From: an uncultured Alistipes sp.
Lineage (GTDB): Bacteria > Bacteroidota > Bacteroidia > Bacteroidales > Rikenellaceae
Direction of reading: 5' to 3'
Length of the DNA stretch: 64,000 bases
Assembly (NCBI GenBank): GCA_949285535.1
Contig: CASDZP010000003.1
Coordinates: 1-64,000, forward strand
A program made the translations under genes and the position numbers. Shown here in pieces: positions 590 to 42,775 of the stretch. Numbering within the stretch: position 1 is the first letter of the stretch; each line of letters starts with the position of its first letter. Below the pieces are notes generated by a model. That model made no database searches and was not told where the DNA came from. It saw only the letters and a list, made by a program, of their open reading frames with translations.

Positions 590-634
590 ATATTTTTTGT
601 GAAAAAGGGATGTGTGTGAGGCTATAAACGAAAA

Positions 635-699
635 GATGTAGACTTCTTAAATGATAATGAGCCGAATGGATATGACATGGTCAAAATGGGCTACGCCCC
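635..699 (-). repeat. Decayed partial copy of the 125-bp tail-associated element
   Basis: The reverse complement of this stretch aligns without gaps to the distal half of the elements at 34528-34653 and 42538-42662. Shared blocks include GACCATGTCAT, GGCTCATT and GAAGTC. The proximal half with the GTTACTTTGTC hairpin is missing. In its own orientation an inverted repeat (747-889) lies upstream, as in the two intact loci. Confidence 0.75.
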
Positions 700-746
700 T
701 AACTTCATAGAAAGATACCAGTAGGGTAGTATTATTGGGAATTTTT

Positions 747-889
747 GTCATTTATCTTTTCTGTTTTGTTTTTTAATTCGGATAATGGCTATTGTTTTTT
801 ATTTCTCCTTATATATTAAGGTAAAATAAAATCAATCGTCATTATCTGAATTGAAAAACATATTGAACAAAACAGAAATGATAAATGAC
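747..889. repeat. Long imperfect inverted repeat
   Basis: The left arm (747-787) starts GTCATTTATC and ends GATAATG. The right arm (840-889) is its reverse complement with a 9-base insertion and three mismatches. The 52-base loop is AT-rich. It could be a small non-autonomous mobile element or a remnant of the structures seen at 34367 and 42343. No coding frame crosses it. Confidence 0.75.
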
Positions 890-32794: not shown

Positions 32795-34405
32795 ATGAAA
32801 AACATATTCAAAATAGCAGCTGTCGGTTGTGTTTCGCTCATCTCGTTGGCAGGTTGTCAGACCAACTTCGATGACATAAACACAAACCCCAACTCACCCG
32901 AGACTGTCCCCACACCCTATCTTCTCACAACTGTGGAGCGTAATATCGCCTACTATTTTTATGATCAGTGGAGCGGGGTACGTATCTCAGGCGTAACTGC
33001 GCAGCACTGGGCGCAGCGTAACTATACCGATGAGGACCGTTATCAGTATCGTACCAACACCACGAACACATGTTTCGAGGATATGTACGTGATGTTGAAC
33101 GACGCGCAGTCAATCATCGACATGTGTCGTGAGAACCCCGACGGTATGTCGGCATACGGTGACCCCGATCTTCAGATAGCTTCTGCAATGCTTATCAAGG
33201 CGTTCGGACTTCAGATGCTCTCAGAGATGTTCGGCGGCATACCTTATTCTGAGGCGTTAAAATATAACAGCTTCGAAGCTCCCGGTATTCTCACTCCCAA
33301 GTATGACACCCAGCAGGAGGTGTTCGCAAATCTCGAAAGCGACATACGCGAAGCGCAGTCTCTTCTCAAAGGTGTTCTCGACAGAGGCGGTAAAGGCTGG
33401 ACAAGCCCCATCAGCGGCAGCGGTACTGCCGACAAGCTCCTTGGCGGCGACCCTGAAAACTGGTATCGTTTCGCCAACACCATGTTGCTCCGTCTGGCTG
33501 TGCGTCAGTCTAACGTGAAAGCCGATTGGAAGACGATGGCAATGGAGGCTATAAACGCGGGTATCATCGAGGACAACAGCGGCAACGCTTCTTTCAAATT
33601 CATAGGTGGTGGTGCCCCCGGTGACGCTCCTATTTATAACATGTTCATAACGAGCGGACGTAACGACTTCACCATGTCATATGCTTTCGCTTCGTTCCTC
33701 AAAGGTGAAACCAACCCCAAACAGGGTTATACTTCTCCTCTTGCCGGCTTCCGTGACCCCCGTTTCAATGCGATGATTGGCGAAGCTAACCTTGCGGCAG
33801 GTAATGTGGACGGTCTTCCCTATGGTTTGGTTACTAACGACAACCAGATTTATGTGGAGAACAATCTGGCTACGCTTATAAACTTCTACCGTCAGTCAGG
33901 CGCTCCTGTGGTGTCACAGGCAACATTCTGGACTACATTCATCGACTGCGCCAACGCCCAGCTTCTCAAAGCTGAAGTTACAGGCGATGTGGCTGACTTC
34001 AGAAAAGGTGTTGAGGCATCTATGGCACAGTGGGGTGTTTCTGACGCCGCTTATGTTCAGAAAGTGTGTGACATGTTCACCGCTGCCGATGATGAGGGCA
34101 AACGTGAGCTTTGCGTAACACAGAAATACATTCACAACTTTGCGCACAACTCAATGGAGGCATGGAGCGAATATCGTCGTACAGGCTATCCCTCGTTCCT
34201 TATTAAACCGGGTGATGTTACTGCCGTGATTAACGGTCAGAATTACATATTCACTCCCATCGACGCCTCTATCACCGAGATTACCGCCCGTATGACCTTT
34301 GCCACAAGCGAGTACACCAGAAACCGCAAAAACCTTCAGGTGGCTATCGACAACCTCGGCGGTCCCGACGCATACTCTACAAAACTTTTCTGGGCTAAAA
34401 AATAA
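32795..34405 (+). CDS. susD: SusD/RagB-family surface lipoprotein
   Basis: 536-residue lipoprotein (lipobox LAGC, Cys21) that acts as the substrate-binding lid on the SusC barrel. The opening FDDINTNPNSPETVP is the mark of the SusD-like_2 branch. The helical TPR-type core includes IASAMLIKAFGLQMLSEMFG and ENWYRFANTMLLRLAVRQS. The last 13 codons (DAYSTKLFWAKK and stop) are duplicated in inverted orientation beyond the terminator hairpin, an unusual arrangement listed separately. Confidence 0.93.
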   Translation: MKNIFKIAAVGCVSLISLAGCQTNFDDINTNPNSPETVPTPYLLTTVERNIAYYFYDQWSGVRISGVTAQHWAQRNYTDEDRYQYRTNTTNTCFEDMYVMLNDAQSIIDMCRENPDGMSAYGDPDLQIASAMLIKAFGLQMLSEMFGGIPYSEALKYNSFEAPGILTPKYDTQQEVFANLESDIREAQSLLKGVLDRGGKGWTSPISGSGTADKLLGGDPENWYRFANTMLLRLAVRQSNVKADWKTMAMEAINAGIIEDNSGNASFKFIGGGAPGDAPIYNMFITSGRNDFTMSYAFASFLKGETNPKQGYTSPLAGFRDPRFNAMIGEANLAAGNVDGLPYGLVTNDNQIYVENNLATLINFYRQSGAPVVSQATFWTTFIDCANAQLLKAEVTGDVADFRKGVEASMAQWGVSDAAYVQKVCDMFTAADDEGKRELCVTQKYIHNFAHNSMEAWSEYRRTGYPSFLIKPGDVTAVINGQNYIFTPIDASITEITARMTFATSEYTRNRKNLQVAIDNLGGPDAYSTKLFWAKK

Positions 34406-34514
34406 GCTCTTCGGATATAACAATAAAAGGACAGAAGTAGTTTGCTTCTGTCCTTTTTTGTTATATCCGAAGAGCTTGTTTCTTAGCCCAGAAAAGTTTT
34501 GTAGAGTATGCGTC
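34367..34514. repeat. Inverted duplication of the susD 3' end around its terminator
   Basis: The left arm (34367-34437) is the last 39 coding bases of susD plus the 3' flank. The right arm (34445-34514) is its reverse complement with two substitutions and a one-base gap; the loop is TAGTTTG. The outermost 32 bases are identical. All differences lie after the AAA-AAA-stop codons or in the terminator stem (AAAAGGACAGAAG / CTTCTGTCC). An ordinary terminator needs only the inner ~13 pairs, so the outer copy of coding sequence calls for explanation. Confidence 0.95.
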
Positions 34515-34616
34515 GTCGCTCCCGCGGGGCTCTCCGAGGGGTCTGCCGACGGCGTTACTTTGTCCCTCGACAAAGTAACCAAAACGAGGGGGCACAGCCC
34601 CTTCTGACCATGTCAT
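34461..34616 (-). CDS. Candidate 51-codon ORF: element peptide fused to a SusD C-terminal tail copy
   Basis: Reading the minus strand from an ATG in the repeat element gives MTWSEGAVPP, then RFGYFVEGQSNAVGRPLGEP, RGSD, the copied SusD tail DAYSTKLFWAKK, then QALRI and stop. The shared 20-residue block is also encoded at 42468-42620, fused there to a different tail. It may be untranslated; no promoter was identified. It is listed because the frame is open across the junction. Confidence 0.25.
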   Translation of the reverse strand: MTWSEGAVPPRFGYFVEGQSNAVGRPLGEPRGSDDAYSTKLFWAKKQALRI

Positions 34617-34653
34617 GTTCAGTCGGCTCATTGCCTTTTACGAAGTCGGCATC
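34528..34653 (+). repeat. 125-bp repeat element, copy 1
   Basis: Nearly identical to 42538-42662 (seven differences including one extra G). It begins GGCTCTCCGAGGGGTCTGCC. It contains an 11-bp perfect hairpin GTTACTTTGTC-CCTC-GACAAAGTAAC and a GGGGC-ACA-GCCCC hairpin, and ends GAAGTCGGCATC. It starts 13 bases after the inverted susD tail. The gene-free stretch 34654-34741 holds nothing else recognisable. Confidence 0.95.
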
Positions 34654-34741
34654 GTAGGTTGAGTGTCGGCTTCGGGAAAGGGAATATGTCGGTGTATGTG
34701 AATCGATTTGCGCGCGTATGATTGAAATGGACAATGTTCGA

Positions 34742-34772
34742 TTGATAACGATAAATTTAATTTGTATATTTG
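34742..34772 (+). promoter_or_regulatory. Promoter of the lipocalin-like lipoprotein gene
   Basis: TTG at 34742-34744, 20 bases, TATATTTG at 34765-34772, ending 22 bases before the ATG at 34795. It rules out the longer in-frame start at 34762. Confidence 0.7.
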
Positions 34773-34794
34773 TAAGTGTTTTAATGGATTGTTT

Positions 34795-35211
34795 ATGAAG
34801 AAAATATTGTTTTTTATACTCGTTTCGGGTGCGATGACTCTCTCCTCTTGCAAGGAGGAGCCTTTTGACGGTTCAGCCATAGAGGGAAAATGGAAACTCG
34901 AACGCGTGGAGCAGAAAGATGACAAGGATAAGTGGGTGGAGGCTCAGGATGTGGCGAAACCTCAATACTGGCTCTTTAATGACGGAAAATTGACAATATT
35001 GTCGGGAAATATCGACTCGGTACCTGATACGGCAATACCCATTGATTATGAAATGGTCGATTCGACAAAATTCCTGAAACTTATGGGGGTGACTACATCG
35101 TCGATAGAAAAACTTACATCAAAAGAGATGATTCTTACAACCGACGGAGTGCCCGAACCGCAGGACGGAAAAACTTTTGTACCCGTGCGTATAGAGTTTG
35201 TCAGACTTTGA
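34795..35211 (+). CDS. Small lipocalin-like lipoprotein
   Basis: 138-residue lipoprotein with lipobox LSSC (Cys19). The mature part begins KEEPFDGSAIEGKWKLERVE, the GxWxL opening of lipocalin-like domains common in Bacteroidetes. Predicted beta strands follow (YWLFNDGKLTILSG, SIEKLTSKEMILTTD). It is an envelope protein of unknown ligand. It has its own consensus promoter and terminator and is therefore monocistronic. Confidence 0.75.
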   Translation: MKKILFFILVSGAMTLSSCKEEPFDGSAIEGKWKLERVEQKDDKDKWVEAQDVAKPQYWLFNDGKLTILSGNIDSVPDTAIPIDYEMVDSTKFLKLMGVTTSSIEKLTSKEMILTTDGVPEPQDGKTFVPVRIEFVRL

Positions 35212-35234
35212 TTTCGTGTAATATGTCGTTAATA

Positions 35235-35270
35235 AAAAAGGATGGTCTTGTCAAAAAGGCCATCCTTTTT
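35235..35270 (+). terminator. Intrinsic terminator
   Basis: AAAAAGGATGGTCTT pairs with AAGGCCATCCTTTTT (one G-T/T-G type mismatch), ending in T residues. Confidence 0.85.
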
Positions 35271-35335
35271 TATGTTTTCCTCTTTGCTGATTGTGGCAAG
35301 GTGTGGATATGATACATTAATATATTAATTCATAC

Positions 35336-35424
35336 CCGTCAAAAACAGATAACCGTATTCTCGAAAGTAAACCAATCGAAAATACGGTTGCCTGAAATAA
35401 AAACTTTCTATCATATAACCCTAC
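35336..35424 (-). repeat. Hairpin-bearing AT-rich segment
   Basis: A 14-bp stem with one mismatch (AACCGTATTCTCGA 35351-35364 / TCGAAAATACGGTT 35376-35389) sits between ACCCGTC and ACCCTAC. Read on the minus strand the ends GTAGGGT...GACGGGTA recall the borders of the inverted repeat near 721-893, so both may belong to one decayed family. The remainder of 35271-35850 is AT-rich and without a recognisable gene; a 66-codon frame at 35573-35773 is not convincing. Confidence 0.4.
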
Positions 35425-35850
35425 CCTCGGATCTCTCCGATTTTCCCGAATTTTAGTTCGGATAATTTGATACTTTTATTGAATAAATTTCCCCAAGCAA
35501 ATTAATATTTATATAGATATGCTTATCTCCAATTTCAGAAGAATGATTCCGTATAAAACCACCCGTCCTTAATTGGTACCACACAAATGTATCTCTTTTT
35601 TTGTTATAATCGTTAGTCTGAATTTTGTAATGTCTGTCTTGTGGAACAAAAGTTTCTGTGTTTTTTGTTGTTTAAAATTTTGTAACACCTTATATTGTTT
35701 TAAATCAATTTGTTATAATTGTAATTTCATTTGTGACAATGGTGAAAAACTATGTGACAAATCGGAAAAATAATTTCGAGACACTCCTTTTTTACCACTT
35801 TTAGCCGTTTTTTTAACTGATAAAAAGAGCTGTTTTTATAGTTGTTTCGG

Positions 35851-35881
35851 TTTTGAAAACGATGTTTTTTACATATATTTG
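35851..35881 (+). promoter_or_regulatory. Promoter of the LytTR gene, almost touching the start codon
   Basis: TTTTG at 35851-35855, 18 bases, TATATTTG at 35874-35881. Only five bases separate the -7 element from the ATG at 35887, so the transcript would be leaderless or nearly so. Confidence 0.55.
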
Positions 35882-35886
35882 TTTAT

Positions 35887-36780
35887 ATGTTCGCGAGAAA
35901 AAATAGAACGGATTGTTACGACGGTTTTCGTTTTGAAACCGTCGCTTCAATATTGATTTCCGTGTCGGTGGCTGTCACGGTGTCGGCGGTTGTCGAAACT
36001 TTCGGCGTACGTGGCGTTGATTCCTGGTTGCGTGATGTGCGTGCGGTTTGTGGTGTGGCGATATTGGCGTTGTCGCTTGCATCGTTGGCTTTCTGTCACG
36101 GAAAAAAAGTGTTTGTAGGACGATACGGATATCTGTGTGAAGCGGGATGGCTCGCCTTGCTGTCGTTGTCGGTCTCTCATTGGTTGCAGGGAGGCACTCT
36201 TTTGGCTCAATCGGTGTCTTTGTTGCCGTTTTTGCTTTTGTCGGGCGTCTGCGCGTTGGGCGGAAGGTATGAAAACAGAAAAAGAGTATGTGAATCGAAC
36301 GCTTGTTTTACTGAAAAGCCTGAACAGCCTGTTGAAAAAGGTGTGTCCGAGCCTGTGGCTTGTGAAGATAATGTTAGGCAAAAAGACGGTATCGGAGATG
36401 TTCTGAATGTCCTTTCGGGCAGGGGAAAGGTTGGGCTGACAATGAATGCGGATGACCTTCTTTTTGTTGGCGCTGACGGGAATTATTTGAAAGTGTGTTA
36501 TATGGACGGCGGTTCTCCTGTCGTTTCATCATTGAGGGCATCTCTCAAAAGTGCCGAGAGCATACTCGGACGCAGCGGAGTGGTAAGGATTAGCAGAGGG
36601 GTGCTTGTGAATGTTTCGAGAGTGGAAAAGGTTGAAAAAGAGGCGGGGGTAACCTATGTCTGCCTGAAAGATTGTGAGGAACGTTTGAAACTGTCTCCGC
36701 AATATTCCGAATATTTCTTTAAAATTCTTGGTAAAACTGCCGCATCTGCTAAAAGACGTTCTGTCGCATCTAAAAAATGA
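35887..36780 (+). CDS. Membrane-bound LytTR-domain transcription regulator
   Basis: 297 residues. Four predicted membrane helices (about 20-40, 50-69, 81-97 and 103-122) are followed by a polar linker and a C-terminal LytTR DNA-binding domain (~180-283). The domain is marked by DLLFVGADGNYLKVCYMDGG, SLRASLKSAESIL and VVRISRGVLVNVSRVEKVE. The layout is that of one-component membrane regulators without a receiver domain. The target is unknown; the macroglobulin gene starts 111 bases downstream behind its own promoter and is an obvious candidate. No alternative ATG exists before the first helix. Confidence 0.85.
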   Translation: MFARKNRTDCYDGFRFETVASILISVSVAVTVSAVVETFGVRGVDSWLRDVRAVCGVAILALSLASLAFCHGKKVFVGRYGYLCEAGWLALLSLSVSHWLQGGTLLAQSVSLLPFLLLSGVCALGGRYENRKRVCESNACFTEKPEQPVEKGVSEPVACEDNVRQKDGIGDVLNVLSGRGKVGLTMNADDLLFVGADGNYLKVCYMDGGSPVVSSLRASLKSAESILGRSGVVRISRGVLVNVSRVEKVEKEAGVTYVCLKDCEERLKLSPQYSEYFFKILGKTAASAKRRSVASKK

Positions 36781-36792
36781 GCCTGAGGGTAG

Positions 36793-36822
36793 TTGTTTTC
36801 ACGATATAATTTAATATCTTTG
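36793..36822 (+). promoter_or_regulatory. Promoter of the macroglobulin gene
   Basis: TTG at 36793-36795, 19 bases, TATCTTTG at 36815-36822. It predicts a leader of about 63 bases before the ATG at 36892. Confidence 0.7.
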
Positions 36823-36891
36823 ATGTCGTATGCGTTTGGTGTGCCGAACGCATGGATTCTTTGCACCTTAAAATTTATGGGAGGGTTGTCA

Positions 36892-39800
36892 ATGGAAAGG
36901 TTGAGAAATCGTTTTTCCGTAATCGTCTTTTCTCTGGTCGTTCTGTTAGGACTGAACGGTTGTGACGGTGTCGGGTCGGGAGCGGCTGTTTTGCCGTTTA
37001 ATCCCAATGTGGCTGCGTTCACCTCGGGGACAATTTCACGTTTTGCGGATGTGAAATTGTTTTTTGAGAATGCCATTCCCGAGAGTAAGCGGGATGTCAA
37101 GTTTATTAACGATGTGATGGGCATCAAACCTCATGTTGACGGCTCTTGGAGCATAGAGGGCGACAGGTGTGTGGTTTTCAAGCCTCGCGAATCGTTTGAC
37201 CGCTCTACAAAATATACTGTTTCGGCAAAGCTCGACAAGATTTTTGACGATTGCAAAGGTGAGAAACCTTTCCGTTTCGGCGTGGAGACGATGCCTTTGA
37301 GCTTCGATGCCGATGTCTCTTCTTTGGATTGTGCCGAGGATGCCGATGTCTATGACGTAACCGTATCGATAAAGACACCTGACAAGGAGGACGCCTCTTT
37401 GGTTGAGTCGCTTATAACGTCATCGGAGGATGTGGAGACGCAATGGAGTCATGACCCGAACGGTACCGACCATACGCTTGTCCTCAAAAATGTCAAGAGT
37501 GACAGCAAGGCGCGGAATGTGGCTCTCAATGTGGCGTCTAACGGCGAGGGCGCGCCGAGCGGCGAGCTGATGAACGTGGAGATACCTGCGGAGAACGATT
37601 TTTCCGTATATGACATATCTTATGTTGAAGGTAAAAGCGGCGCTGTTGAGATAACGTTTACAAAACAGCTCGATAAGAGCCTCGACTATGAAGGTTTGGC
37701 TGCCATTATGGACGGTGATGCCGTTATGGAGGTGAATGGCAACAAGATAAGACTTTTCCCTGACGACAATTCCGTAGATAAGGTGACAGTAAGGCTCGAT
37801 GCGGCAATCAAATCTGTCGGCGGAGAGCGTCTCGGCGAGAATCTGACTTTTGAAGTGGATGTCAGACCTCTGAAACCGAGTGTGTCGTTTGTGGACGACG
37901 GCGTTATAGTGCCGCAGTCGGAGAAAACTCTGATACCCTTTACTGCCGCATATTTGAGAGGTGTGCAGGTGAGGGTGATAAAGATATATGGGGATAACAT
38001 GGGGCAGTTCCTCCAGAGTGGAGACCTCGACAGCGAGAGCGAGATTATGCGTGTGGGCCGTCTCATGGCGATAAAGACCGTGATGCTCGGTGAACCCGAC
38101 GACCCCGAATTGAAAAAGAGAAAGGTTTATGCGCTCGACCTGACCGAGATGATAAAACCTGAGACAGGTGCGGTTTATCGTGTGATACTCTGTTTCGACA
38201 GAGATCTGTCGGTTTATGACCGTTGTACAGAAAACCGTGAATATCGTACGGCAGAGCAGATAGAGGCGGATGATAAAGCGTTGTTCCTCAAGGAGTCGTC
38301 ACGATTCGATGCTAACGGCTCTTACTATTATACGTATCGTGACTGGAGCCGTTACAGATATTCAGAAAGTGAAGACCCGTGCAGCGACAGTTATTATATG
38401 GATTACGGAGCTGGTGTCGGAAAGAATGTTTTTGTAACCGACATAGCTTTGACGGCAAAGGCCGACTATGACAACAGGCTGCATGTAATGGCTCGTCGCA
38501 TAACCGACACCAATCCTATTAACGGGCTTGAAGTGACGGCTTTCGACTATCAGAGACGAAACGTGGGTGAGGGTGTTACGGACGATAAAGGTAACGTAGT
38601 GATTTCATGCTCTCGAAAACCGTTCTATCTTGTGGCTGAAGAAGGCAAGATGCGTGCCTATGTGAGGGTGGATGAGGCTTCTTCGCTCTCTCTCAGCTCG
38701 TTCGATGTGTCGGGACAGAGTCTTGCTGACGGAATGAAAGGTTTTATATACGGTGAACGTGGTGTGTGGAGACCTGGTGACACTCTTCATGTAGGCTTCA
38801 TGCTGAATGACCGTGAGAAAAAGATTCCGCAGGGTATGCCCGTGACAGCGGAACTTTATATGCCTCAGGGACAGTTGTTCGCCAAAGAGACGGCGTCTAA
38901 CGACAAGTTCGGTATGACGGCTTTCGATTTCCCGTTGGGTGTGGATGTGCCTACGGGTAGCTGGAATGTGAAAGTTAATGTCGGTGGTGCTGTCTTTGAG
39001 AAACGCATGCGTGTGGAGACGGTGAAACCGAACAGGTTGAAGATAAAACTGGCGTCATACGGAAATACAATATCGGCGGACTCTCTGATTACCATAAGCT
39101 CCGAGTGGATGCACGGCGCAAAGGCTGACGGACTCGGTTATCGTGTCGAATGTCTGCTCGGAATGTTCGACAAACCGTTTAAAGGGTATGAAGCCTATTC
39201 TTTCTCGGATGTGACTAAAAAGGTTTCGCAGGGACGATATAAAGTTGCCGAGGGAACGCTCGACGCGCAGGGTGTCGCACGTTTCCGCTTCGGTGTCAAT
39301 ATTGTCGCGAGCGACGCGCCGGGTATGATGAAAGCGGCTTTCACGAGTCGCGTTTATGAGAAATCGGGTGATTTCAGTACGGCTGTCGATGTGATGACCT
39401 ATTCTCCTTTCGACGGATATGTGGGTCTGAAAACACCTGGTGACGGTAATCTCGAAACGGGCAAACAACATCCTTTCTCTGTGGTGGCGTTATCGCCTGA
39501 CGGACAACCGAGAAACGGCGCTGCGGTAAAGGTTAAGGTTTCACGACTTGAAGGATATTGGTGGTGGTATTCCGATGACGACTATTTCAGCCGTTATAAA
39601 TCGGCGGAATACAGAAAACCGATTGAGACGAAAGATGTTACAGTAGGCGCGGACGGCAAGGCGGAGTTCTCGCTCGGCTATCCGTCAGGTCAGTGGGGAT
39701 ACTACCTGATAGAGGTTAAAGATGTTCACAGCGGACATGTGGCGTCGCGTGTGGTCTATTTCGGTGAGAGCTGGAGAGCTTCAGGCGAAGGTGAGTATGC

Positions 39801-42399
39801 CAATCTGTTGCAGATAAAGAGCGACAAGACGTTTTATGTATGCGGCGACTCGATAGCTGTCAGCTTCCCGTCGTCTGTCGGGGCGAGAGCGATAATCTCG
39901 ATAGAGAACGGTAGCGGAGTGCTGTCGGTTTATGACCATAAGTGTACCTCTGACTATACCGAGATAAAGATAAAGGCTACCGAGCAGATGCAGCCGACCG
40001 TTTATGTGGGTGTCTCTCTGATTCAGCCTTACGGCGTCAGAAACGACCGACCCATAAGGATGTATGGAGTTGTTCCCGTTGAGGTGACCGACCCAGCGAG
40101 CAGACTTGAACCCGTGATAAAATCGGCTGACAAGATAAGACCCGAAAGTGACTTTACGGTGACTGTCGCCGAGAAGAAAGGCAGGGCTATGGGTTACACG
40201 ATAGCTATTGTGGATGAGGGACTTCTCGACCTGACCAGATTCGCCACTCCCGACCCGTTCGCGGCTTTCAATGCCCGTGAGGCTCTCGGTGTGCGCACTT
40301 GGGATAACTATAATCACATAATCGGCGCGTACGGAGGCCGTATAGGTCGTATATTGAGTATCGGCGGTGACGACGCTCTGTTGGCGGGTAGCGGTTCCGA
40401 AATAAACAGATTCGCGCCTGTGGTAATCTTCGAGGGTCCGTTTGAACTGAAAGCGGGTGAGACGAAACGCCATACGTTTAAGATGCCTAACTATAACGGA
40501 CGAGTGAAAGTTATGGTGGTGGCGAGTGACGGTAAGGCGTTCGGTAATGCGGACAAGAGTGTCCTTGTGCGTAAGCCCGTCATGTTGCTTGGAACAATGC
40601 CGCGTGTGATTGGAGTGGGTGACCGTATGGCTGTACCCGCTACGGTGTTCGTGACGGAGAAGGGTTTCGGAACGGTGAATCTGAAGATTGAATGTTCCGA
40701 TAATCTTGAGGTTGTCGGTTCTAACAGCAGTACCGTTACATTCTCAGGTACGGGAGAAAAGGTTGTGCCTTTCACCGTGAAAGCCAGAAATACGGAAGGA
40801 GAGGGACGTGTCAGGATTACTGCCGTTTCCGGCGCAGAAAAGGCCGTTTATGAGGCTACAATAAACATAAGAGCTGTAAAAACAGAGCAGACGGCTGTCT
40901 CATCGCTGATGATAGAGGCGGGTAAGAGTGCCGAACTCAACGTGAACGTTCCGGGTGAGAGCGGCAAGGGAACGTTGACACTTGAACTTTCGAGTGTCGA
41001 GCCGCTGGATTTGTCGGGCAGAATGCGCTACCTGATAGGTTATCCGCACGGTTGTATCGAACAGACCGTTTCAAAGGCTTTCCCGCAGATATATCTGCCG
41101 AAAGTGACGGAAATGTCGTCTAAACAGGCACAAGAGTGTCAGTATAATGTTGAGGCGGCAATCGGAAGGTTGAGGTCTTACTCTCTGCGTGACGGTTCGT
41201 TCAGCTATTGGCCCGGAGGTCTCTATGGAGACGAATGGGGTACGGCTTATGCTCTCCACTTCCTGACCGAGGCTAAAAAAGCGGGGTATGATGTTCCAGA
41301 CTTCCTGTTCAATAATGCTCTCAAAAATGTGGCGAGAGTATCTTCTGACTGGACGACGACCAAGAATACAACTCGCAGTTCTCTGCGTACGCAGGCATAC
41401 AGACTCTATCTGCTCGCGCTGAATAACAAAGCGGACAAGGGTGCCATGAACCGACTGAGAGAGTGCGGCATGATGACTCCTTCAGTACAGAATCTTTTGG
41501 CGGCGGCGTATGTGGCGATAGGTCGTAAAGATGTGGCGTCACAATTGATGGAACGTACGGCTGACATCTCGGAAAACTATTATGACGACACGACATACGG
41601 CAGTCCGTTGCGAGACCGTGCAATCGCGCTCATTGCGGCGACAGCGGTAGGAAACATTCAGAACGGCATGGTGTTGTCGAAAGAAATATCCGAAGAGCTG
41701 TCCTCTTCACGTGTTCTAAGTACGCAGGAGGTGGCTTATGCGCTCATGGCGTTGTCCGGTTATCAGCTTGGCGCTGGTAAAGATAGTGCCGGAATAGAGG
41801 CGTCGTACTCTTGTCAGAGTGTAAAAGGCAATGTATCGACGACTAAATATTCGTGGTATTCGGTTTTGAGCGACAAGGCTCCGTCGAAGAGTGTGGTGTC
41901 TGTTGTAAATAAAGGTAAGTCTCCGTTATATGCACGCCTTGTCGGAACAGGTGTCTTATATAATGAAAAGGTTGGCGCTTCGTCGAACGGCTTGCGTCTC
42001 AATGTGGTTTATAAGGATGCGGACGGTAATGAGATAGATGTTACCCGTCTCAACTCAGGTGTTGACTTCTATTGTCATGCCATAATCGAGAATGTATCGG
42101 GACGTTCGGTGCGCAATATCGCTCTTACGCAGATATTCCCCGCAGGATGGGAGATTTTGAATCAGCGTTACGTGGAAGGCGGTGATGAGTCGTCAGACGG
42201 TGTCTCTTATCGCGATATTCGTGACGACAGAGTTTCAAGTTATATCGACAATCTTCCCGACAGGCGTAGTGTAACAGTCGTTACGCGCCTTAGTGCCGCA
42301 TACGCCGGTTGTTATTATCTGCCTACAGCTACCTGCGAGGCGATGTATGACAATACTCTGCGAGCCAATACCAAGAGCGGAGAGATAGAGGTGTTATAA
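36892..42399 (+). CDS. Alpha-2-macroglobulin family lipoprotein
   Basis: 1835-residue lipoprotein (LNGC, Cys24), probably in the periplasm, that should trap attacking proteases. After N-terminal Ig-like domains comes the macroglobulin core: a MG2-type segment SLADGMKGFIYGERGVWRPGD near residue 615, EGPFELKAGETKRHTFKMPN, and a thioester domain with the intact GCIEQ motif (Cys1388-Gln1391), the reactive bond that binds proteases covalently. The alpha-alpha barrel around the thioester and a C-terminal receptor-like domain follow. In E. coli the homologue YfhM is paired with pbpC; no such gene is adjacent. An in-frame start at 36793 would precede the promoter and is rejected. The last 57 coding bases reappear inverted downstream. 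Confidence 0.92.
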   Translation: MERLRNRFSVIVFSLVVLLGLNGCDGVGSGAAVLPFNPNVAAFTSGTISRFADVKLFFENAIPESKRDVKFINDVMGIKPHVDGSWSIEGDRCVVFKPRESFDRSTKYTVSAKLDKIFDDCKGEKPFRFGVETMPLSFDADVSSLDCAEDADVYDVTVSIKTPDKEDASLVESLITSSEDVETQWSHDPNGTDHTLVLKNVKSDSKARNVALNVASNGEGAPSGELMNVEIPAENDFSVYDISYVEGKSGAVEITFTKQLDKSLDYEGLAAIMDGDAVMEVNGNKIRLFPDDNSVDKVTVRLDAAIKSVGGERLGENLTFEVDVRPLKPSVSFVDDGVIVPQSEKTLIPFTAAYLRGVQVRVIKIYGDNMGQFLQSGDLDSESEIMRVGRLMAIKTVMLGEPDDPELKKRKVYALDLTEMIKPETGAVYRVILCFDRDLSVYDRCTENREYRTAEQIEADDKALFLKESSRFDANGSYYYTYRDWSRYRYSESEDPCSDSYYMDYGAGVGKNVFVTDIALTAKADYDNRLHVMARRITDTNPINGLEVTAFDYQRRNVGEGVTDDKGNVVISCSRKPFYLVAEEGKMRAYVRVDEASSLSLSSFDVSGQSLADGMKGFIYGERGVWRPGDTLHVGFMLNDREKKIPQGMPVTAELYMPQGQLFAKETASNDKFGMTAFDFPLGVDVPTGSWNVKVNVGGAVFEKRMRVETVKPNRLKIKLASYGNTISADSLITISSEWMHGAKADGLGYRVECLLGMFDKPFKGYEAYSFSDVTKKVSQGRYKVAEGTLDAQGVARFRFGVNIVASDAPGMMKAAFTSRVYEKSGDFSTAVDVMTYSPFDGYVGLKTPGDGNLETGKQHPFSVVALSPDGQPRNGAAVKVKVSRLEGYWWWYSDDDYFSRYKSAEYRKPIETKDVTVGADGKAEFSLGYPSGQWGYYLIEVKDVHSGHVASRVVYFGESWRASGEGEYANLLQIKSDKTFYVCGDSIAVSFPSSVGARAIISIENGSGVLSVYDHKCTSDYTEIKIKATEQMQPTVYVGVSLIQPYGVRNDRPIRMYGVVPVEVTDPASRLEPVIKSADKIRPESDFTVTVAEKKGRAMGYTIAIVDEGLLDLTRFATPDPFAAFNAREALGVRTWDNYNHIIGAYGGRIGRILSIGGDDALLAGSGSEINRFAPVVIFEGPFELKAGETKRHTFKMPNYNGRVKVMVVASDGKAFGNADKSVLVRKPVMLLGTMPRVIGVGDRMAVPATVFVTEKGFGTVNLKIECSDNLEVVGSNSSTVTFSGTGEKVVPFTVKARNTEGEGRVRITAVSGAEKAVYEATINIRAVKTEQTAVSSLMIEAGKSAELNVNVPGESGKGTLTLELSSVEPLDLSGRMRYLIGYPHGCIEQTVSKAFPQIYLPKVTEMSSKQAQECQYNVEAAIGRLRSYSLRDGSFSYWPGGLYGDEWGTAYALHFLTEAKKAGYDVPDFLFNNALKNVARVSSDWTTTKNTTRSSLRTQAYRLYLLALNNKADKGAMNRLRECGMMTPSVQNLLAAAYVAIGRKDVASQLMERTADISENYYDDTTYGSPLRDRAIALIAATAVGNIQNGMVLSKEISEELSSSRVLSTQEVAYALMALSGYQLGAGKDSAGIEASYSCQSVKGNVSTTKYSWYSVLSDKAPSKSVVSVVNKGKSPLYARLVGTGVLYNEKVGASSNGLRLNVVYKDADGNEIDVTRLNSGVDFYCHAIIENVSGRSVRNIALTQIFPAGWEILNQRYVEGGDESSDGVSYRDIRDDRVSSYIDNLPDRRSVTVVTRLSAAYAGCYYLPTATCEAMYDNTLRANTKSGEIEVL

Positions 42400-42524
42400 A
42401 GCATTTATCACAATAAAGAGGGCTTTTGATTTTGTTATCAAAAACCCTCTTTATTGTTGTAAATGCCTTATAGTACCTCTATCTCTCCGCTCTTGGTATT
42501 GGCTCGCAGAGTATTGTCATACAT
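42343..42524. repeat. Inverted duplication of the macroglobulin gene 3' end around its terminator
   Basis: Two 88-base arms (42343-42430 and 42437-42524) with loop TTTGTT. The outer 50 bases, all coding sequence, are identical. Six differences lie in the last codons, the stop region and the terminator stem, and three of the six keep G-U pairing in RNA. The inner 20-bp stem CAATAAAGAGGG... is the terminator. The geometry is the same as at susD. Confidence 0.95.
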
Positions 42525-42620
42525 TATTGTCTCCGACGGCTCTCCGAGGGGTCTGCCGACGGCGTTACTTTGTCCCTCGACAAAGTAACCAAAACGAGGG
42601 GCACAGCCCCTTTTGACCAT
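42468..42620 (-). CDS. Candidate 50-codon ORF: element peptide fused to a macroglobulin tail copy
   Basis: On the minus strand an ATG in the repeat element opens MVKRGCAP, then RFGYFVEGQSNAVGRPLGEP, SETI, then the copied tail MYDNTLRANTKSGEIEVL and stop. The final Val-Leu codons differ from the gene only synonymously (GTA CTA for GTG TTA). Expression is not shown; no promoter was identified. Confidence 0.25.
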   Translation of the reverse strand: MVKRGCAPRFGYFVEGQSNAVGRPLGEPSETIMYDNTLRANTKSGEIEVL

Positions 42621-42662
42621 GTCATATTCAGTTGGTTCATTGTCTTTTACGAAGTCGGCATC
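42538..42662 (+). repeat. 125-bp repeat element, copy 2
   Basis: Same boundaries and orientation as 34528-34653, beginning 13 bases after the inverted macroglobulin tail. It carries the GTTACTTTGTC / GACAAAGTAAC hairpin and GGGGC-ACA-GCCCC. Bases 42663-42775 to the next promoter are AT-rich with nothing recognisable. Confidence 0.95.
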
Positions 42663-42775
42663 ATATCGTGTGTATTCTTAAAAATGATAATTGGCTGAAC
42701 CGGATTATGTTTTGTCGGGATGTCGGTCTGGAAAATTAATTTTGATGTGCGGATTTTTGATTTTTGAAACGGTAT

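Follow-up and report, generated by a model that had tools for sequence, protein, structure and literature searches.

A terminator-associated interspersed repeat found beside inverted gene tails in an uncultured Alistipes species

Small repeats dispersed through genomes are already known, and so is template switching by fold-back. REP sequences and REPINs, which are mobilised by RAYT transposases of the Y1 type (PMC3116915, PMC8049555, PMC3733652), are short, extragenic, hairpin-forming, high-copy and non-autonomous, and are confined to related genomes, and group IIC introns occupy sites just downstream of a DNA stem-loop (PMC10190682). At quasi-palindromes the polymerases of E. coli can change over to the nascent strand, using that strand as its own template so that the arms are made to match and the palindromes become more perfect (PMC7202029). 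Origin-dependent inverted-repeat amplification and related inversion duplications give rise to inverted duplications from short inverted repeats (PMC4689423), and mitochondrial repetitive hairpin elements and GC clusters are small GC-rich hairpins located between genes, for which a mobiliser is not obvious (PMC2800124, PMC4478555). The repeat described here, from a 64,000-nucleotide stretch of an uncultured Alistipes sp. (the window), resembles each of these systems in the respects just named, the counterpart of the group IIC stem-loop being the terminator-like hairpin at the centre of a palindrome; use of the nascent strand as template and matching of the arms would be shared if the fold-back reading proposed below is right.

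Anatomy of the repeat and its copies in the window

The two main copies (Table 1) lie where a preliminary description of this DNA had placed them and are 95% identical over 126 nt; the 11-bp hairpin with a CCTC loop and the GGGGC/GCCCC hairpin reported there were confirmed and are nearly invariant among copies. Reading outward from the gene, the order is gene tail, terminator, inverted tail, zero to six mini-hairpin units and the 11-bp core hairpin, distal to which follow the GGGGC hairpin, a 3' part composed of conserved blocks and hypervariable patches, and finally unique sequence. The element measures about 125 bp. The mini-hairpin units are GC-rich, have the form N3-TCC/TCCC/TGCC-N3' and fall into six stem types; 234 of the 250 parsed units are fully complementary, the parser having demanded two of the three pairs. 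The first unit begins a median of 4 nt after the end of the inverted arm. A left boundary 13 bases beyond the tails had also been described, and this holds for both window copies (12-13 nt) but not genome-wide, where the distance from the tail to the core hairpin ranges from 13 to 99 nt because the number of mini-hairpin units between them varies. On the other side a few copies have right flanks in common for up to ~190 bp beyond the element, so that its right edge is not sharp. A second repeat, GTGACGGGGTACGCTTGCCAACTTGTCGAA, is located to the right of several copies (L003, L009, L019 and L064), which share up to ~190 bp.

An RNA structure for the 3' part was considered and rejected: apart from the two hairpins already evident, RNAalifold returned a single weak pairing of 4 bp, with no covariation within the copies of this genome. 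A conserved peptide was rejected too, as the lengths of the indels do not keep to multiples of three and the variable patches do not follow third positions (by eye). Inspection by eye of the copies listed showed no terminal inverted repeats, a feature of MITEs of DDE transposons, and a target-site duplication is unreadable because one flank of the element is the palindrome itself.

The genes with duplicated 3' ends presumably encode a SusD/RagB-like protein (536 aa) and an alpha-2-macroglobulin-like protein (1868 aa). The hairpin of the copy 2 palindrome has no long T run and escaped the terminator scan; the arms of the other terminators detected in the window measure 7-19 bp. The window also contains a third, degraded copy, which has lost the core hairpin and still stands beside a palindrome, indicating that the association outlives the core. 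This decayed palindrome occupies the 5' region of a gene on the + strand and not a gene end. A direct repeat of 128 nt in two copies (87% identical; 313-440 and 477-604) adjoins the third copy.

Table 1. Positions of the repeat copies, palindromes and associated genes in the window
Feature	Position	Strand	Basis or remark
Gene with 3' end duplicated at copy 1, 536 aa	32795..34405	+	ORF; last 40 nt inside left arm
Palindrome at copy 1, arms of 75 bp, formed by gene tail, terminator and inverted tail	34366..34515	+	
Intrinsic terminator-like hairpin at copy 1 palindrome centre, 13-bp stem and T run	34427..34461	+	Hairpin scan; T run read
Copy 1 mini-hairpin array, CGC-TCCC-GCG, CTC-TCC-GAG, GTC-TGCC-GAC	34517..34553	+	
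Copy 1 core hairpin, GTTACTTTGTC-CCTC-GACAAAGTAAC	34554..34579	+	
Copy 1 second hairpin, GGGGC-ACA-GCCCC	34589..34601	+	
Copy 1 3' part: conserved ATGTCA, TCATT and GAAGTC, hypervariable patches	34602..34672	+	Right edge ill-defined
Gene with 3' end duplicated at copy 2, 1868 aa	36793..42399	+	ORF; last 57 nt inside left arm
Palindrome at copy 2, arms of 91 bp, formed by gene tail, terminator and inverted tail	42343..42525	+	
Copy 2 mini-hairpin array, GTC-TCC-GAC, CTC-TCC-GAG, GTC-TGCC-GAC	42529..42563	+	
Copy 2 core hairpin	42564..42589	+	
Copy 2 second hairpin, GGGGC-ACA-GCCCC	42598..42610	+	
Copy 2 3' part	42611..42680	+	
Third copy, degraded: 3' half of the element, core hairpin absent	623..700	-	Inverted-repeat search, then read
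Decayed palindrome directly upstream of third copy	747..889	-	

Distribution in the genome and in relatives

The core pattern, taken together with its directional CCAAAA end, matches 119 sites of the 2.05 Mb, 88%-complete genome at up to two mismatches and 129 at up to three, against 0 for the reversed pattern used as a control, and chance is thereby excluded. We examined 93 copies, 90 of them with at least 560 nt of upstream sequence, in a set skewed to intact cores (30 are the best whole-element matches and the others mismatch-free core-pattern sites). The element has a fixed orientation, directly 3' of terminator-like hairpins at gene ends. A palindrome with arms of 21-168 bp (median 89) lies immediately upstream in 89 of the 90 copies with enough upstream sequence; it is centred on the terminator-like hairpin, and its left arm usually extends into the preceding gene. 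In 51 of the 64 copies with a dominant forward ORF the stop codon falls inside the left arm, and the median distance from stop codon to palindrome centre is 36 nt. The association is exclusive as well, since among palindromes with at least 23 nt of seed coverage in ~257 kb, 80 stand beside the element and 0 elsewhere. At the protein level, a search found FtsZ residues 427-450 again on the opposite strand directly after ftsZ. Five pairs of neighbouring elements are less than 2.5 kb apart, all of them facing each other. Two copies (L012, L027) sit after tRNA-like genes, as judged by eye.

The arms differ from each other by 0-21% (median 7%), mostly by transitions and with gene-like substitution patterns, and the mismatches are only slightly clustered. 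Fold-back chimeras are a known artefact, and the genomes compared are metagenome assemblies. An artefact of assembly or library preparation is nevertheless very improbable, given this divergence of the arms, a junction that is always to one element family within contigs of up to 188 kb, and the recurrence of the arrangement in an independently assembled species.

This second species of the genus (G003) carries a diverged family of the element, in which a palindrome accompanies 20 of the 23 readable copies; the outer pairs of its core stem co-vary in a compensatory manner (TTAC/GTAA, GTAC/GTAC, ATAC/GTAT, CTAC/GTAG). The gene tail that had been described as always joined to the element is thus nearly always so, one copy here and three there having no palindrome. 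The anatomy and the inverted tails are consistent among copies, and the earlier suggestion of a non-autonomous element located at terminators, seen here to be dispersed, is supported. Beyond the two element-bearing species, the only match in a sample of 120 genomes of the family was a degenerate one belonging to a third congener (G001), and among 198 sampled genomes of the order there were three isolated look-alikes, confined to two genomes. Look-alikes in Oscillospiraceae MAGs (L041, L043, L044) have a hairpin TTACTTTGTC-NNNN-GACAAAGTAACCAAA after GC-rich mini-hairpins and may be distant kin or the product of convergence. Both these and the look-alikes in other Bacteroidales are without a palindrome (computed for the former, by eye for the latter), and neither were counted as members.

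The ends of orthologous ftsZ in two relatives and of tpiA in three relatives have neither the element nor an inverted tail; they show ordinary terminator stems of 14-21 bp, and the inverted tail and the element are therefore additions to an ordinary gene end, in a comparison of gene ends and not of exact empty sites because synteny around yebC is not kept. Four orthologous genes, apparently those for S16, S14, IF-2 and RNase Y (L032/L099, L145/L086, L154/L083 and L155/L053), bear the element in both species; in each case the arms match the gene tail of their own species and the downstream sequences differ. These four positions are candidates for ancient insertions common to the two species.

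Such shared positions would be expected of a functional 3'-end element, kept vertically together with its hairpin by selection for a role, for example, in mRNA 3' ends, transcription insulation or DNA organisation, the palindromes being a by-product or a part of that function. Copies at convergent genes facing each other would agree with this reading, as would a 24-nt block outside the fetch pattern, which is unchanged in 63 of 74 copies against ~46% expected from arm divergence. The excess conservation suggests either that the element is under selection or that palindromes mutate faster, and if the arms do mutate faster than ordinary sequence the argument from this block is weakened. Furthermore, four shared genes is near chance if the targets are operon-terminal genes only, the ftsZ and tpiA orthologues of relatives do without the element, and outside the two species the family sample holds just the one degenerate match. 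We therefore regard maintenance by function as unlikely.

Search for an enzyme and origin of the inverted tails

The preliminary description had linked the repeat to IS200/IS605, RAYT and IS91/HUH systems. The results lend no support to such a link. Y1_Tnp (PF01797) has no match in this genome, whereas 5 of 14 control genomes were matched; with the genome 88% complete, an enzyme could be missing from the assembly. Y2_Tnp (PF04986) gave no match in four genomes of the genus, and none in the control genomes either, so that this negative carries no information. An Rfam search of the window returned no match, and a plasmid or phage origin was rejected for want of any match, viral contigs included. 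The sole reverse transcriptase found in the genome is that of a diversity-generating retroelement (DGR). It is ~450 aa long (L119, G000:C12:34817-36239) and is preceded by repeated regions of the template/variable type; no copy of the element lies near it. A group II intron or retron was also rejected, the only reverse transcriptase being DGR-like and no group II reverse transcriptase or maturase having been found.

These results bear on a route through RNA, in which a reverse transcriptase would self-prime on the terminator hairpin of an mRNA, copy the gene tail and jump to the element RNA, the chimeric cDNA then being integrated at the gene. Read on the opposite strand, the arrangement is indeed that of an RNA of the element joined to the 3' end of the gene in sense orientation, terminator included, and the arms begin at transcription terminators. 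However, the DGR enzyme has its own template and variable repeats, and it was rejected as the driver because the element-rich second species shows no reverse transcriptase match while a relative that does bear one has at most one degenerate match to the element. Nor was adenine-specific mutagenesis seen in the arms, whose changes are general transitions. The RNA route is accordingly improbable, slightly more so than maintenance by function.

The age of the arms was compared with that of the element. The median nearest-neighbour distance between elements is 11 of 117 for copies with arm mismatch of 2.5% or less and 10 for the rest (rho 0.02); perfect-arm copies thus have elements as far from their nearest relative as the remaining copies do, and the identity of the arms does not serve as a clock of insertion. 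Had palindromes arisen with the copying of a resident element, the freshest ones would be expected to carry an element nearly identical to another copy, which they do not. Either the arms were homogenised after formation or written beside resident elements, or transposition was cut-and-paste, or the sources were unsampled. The proposal that the tail is made during insertion draws no support from this comparison, arm freshness being unrelated to the recency of element copying. Some age signal remains, for copies with more arm mismatch tend weakly to have more core edits (rho 0.26, p 0.02).

Insertion and tail formation might still be a single step, as the preliminary description implied, an element-specific enzyme inserting the element at the terminator hairpin while the 3' end of the target folds back, is extended over the gene tail and is joined to the element, with later differences between the arms due to drift and repair. 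Such a capture would account for the near-obligate and exclusive association with palindromes, for the fixed orientation with an arm ending at the array, for the weak signal of age in the joint rise of core edits and arm mismatch, and for relatives that have neither part of the arrangement. It is set back by the Y1 enzyme not being found in the genome and by perfect-palindrome copies without a near-identical sibling, contrary to recent copy-and-paste, although the latter objection is void if sources are missing from the assembly, if transposition is cut-and-paste or if the arms are homogenised. On balance we consider one-step capture rather unlikely, while ranking it above the RNA and functional explanations.

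The account that we put forward, tentatively and with its parts judged jointly, is that the repeat is a genus-restricted, non-autonomous interspersed element sited at terminators, and that fold-back synthesis halting at the element overwrites its upstream flank. The element itself was probably mobile at some time. In this mechanism a nascent or broken top strand would fold at the terminator onto the terminator stem and self-prime (snap-back DNA synthesis), copying 20-170 nt back through the gene end from a DNA and not an RNA template. Synthesis would return to the normal template at the hairpin array of the element, which may serve both as a barrier and as a landing site for the template switch, and the arms would later be refreshed by the same process, remaining alike regardless of the age of the element. 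Priming at the terminator would yield a copy that is inverted, adjacent, terminator-centred and variable in length, and the stop of the arm at the hairpin array together with the exclusivity of the association would tie the fold-back to the element. The age result leads us to favour slightly this barrier-and-refresh reading over capture in one step, both being inferences.

Several points stand against fold-back synthesis. Known quasi-palindrome switching uses existing inverted repeats, and new arms of 50-150 bp at ~120 sites go far beyond it. The arrival of the element at ~120 gene ends is left unexplained, the correlation between arm mismatch and core edits is that expected if the arms date from insertion, and the palindrome is absent from three copies in the second species and from one here.

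If the fold-back reading is true, terminator hairpins in living bacteria can act as primers for long stretches of fold-back synthesis, at over 100 loci and tied to one element. This would offer a natural system for studying palindrome formation, usually deemed rare, unstable and pathological, and a new mode of attachment of repeats to genes, in which the terminator is targeted and a shared two-way hairpin is produced at gene ends. The ~120 natural replicates in this genome make the process testable.

Comparison with known systems

Unlike REP sequences and REPINs, the present element is ~125 nt long, has a modular mini-hairpin array and an inverted flank of host sequence, and occurs in a genome where a Y1 gene was not found. 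A REP is defined by a palindrome of 20-40 nt with a GTAG or CGTC tag; here the core GTTACTTTGTC forms an 11-bp stem with a 4-nt loop, and no tag was seen. Group IIC introns differ in having a ribozyme fold and a group II reverse transcriptase or maturase; no such enzyme was found here, and in the window nothing matches Rfam; we know of no inversion of a gene tail by these introns. The hallmarks of DGRs, a reverse transcriptase adjacent to its template and adenine-specific changes in the copy, are not those of the element. To our knowledge, no captured inverted gene tail has been reported for the mitochondrial hairpin elements and GC clusters.

In contrast to quasi-palindrome switching in E. 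coli, the arms here are long, start from a terminator stem that is itself short and are confined to the neighbourhood of a single element. Inverted-repeat amplification copies long segments, whereas the copy described here does not exceed ~170 bp and has a repeat element at its end. Within the open-licence literature searched, which leaves most subscription journals outside, no description of the coupling of element and tail was found, and a near-obligate coupling with an inverted gene end was found in no family tested. It is possible, and we suggest it with some reserve, that the repeat represents a new class of mobile element, whose insertion or upkeep would obligatorily write an inverted gene 3' end with the terminator as self-primer, through an enzyme outside the Y1, group II and retron types.
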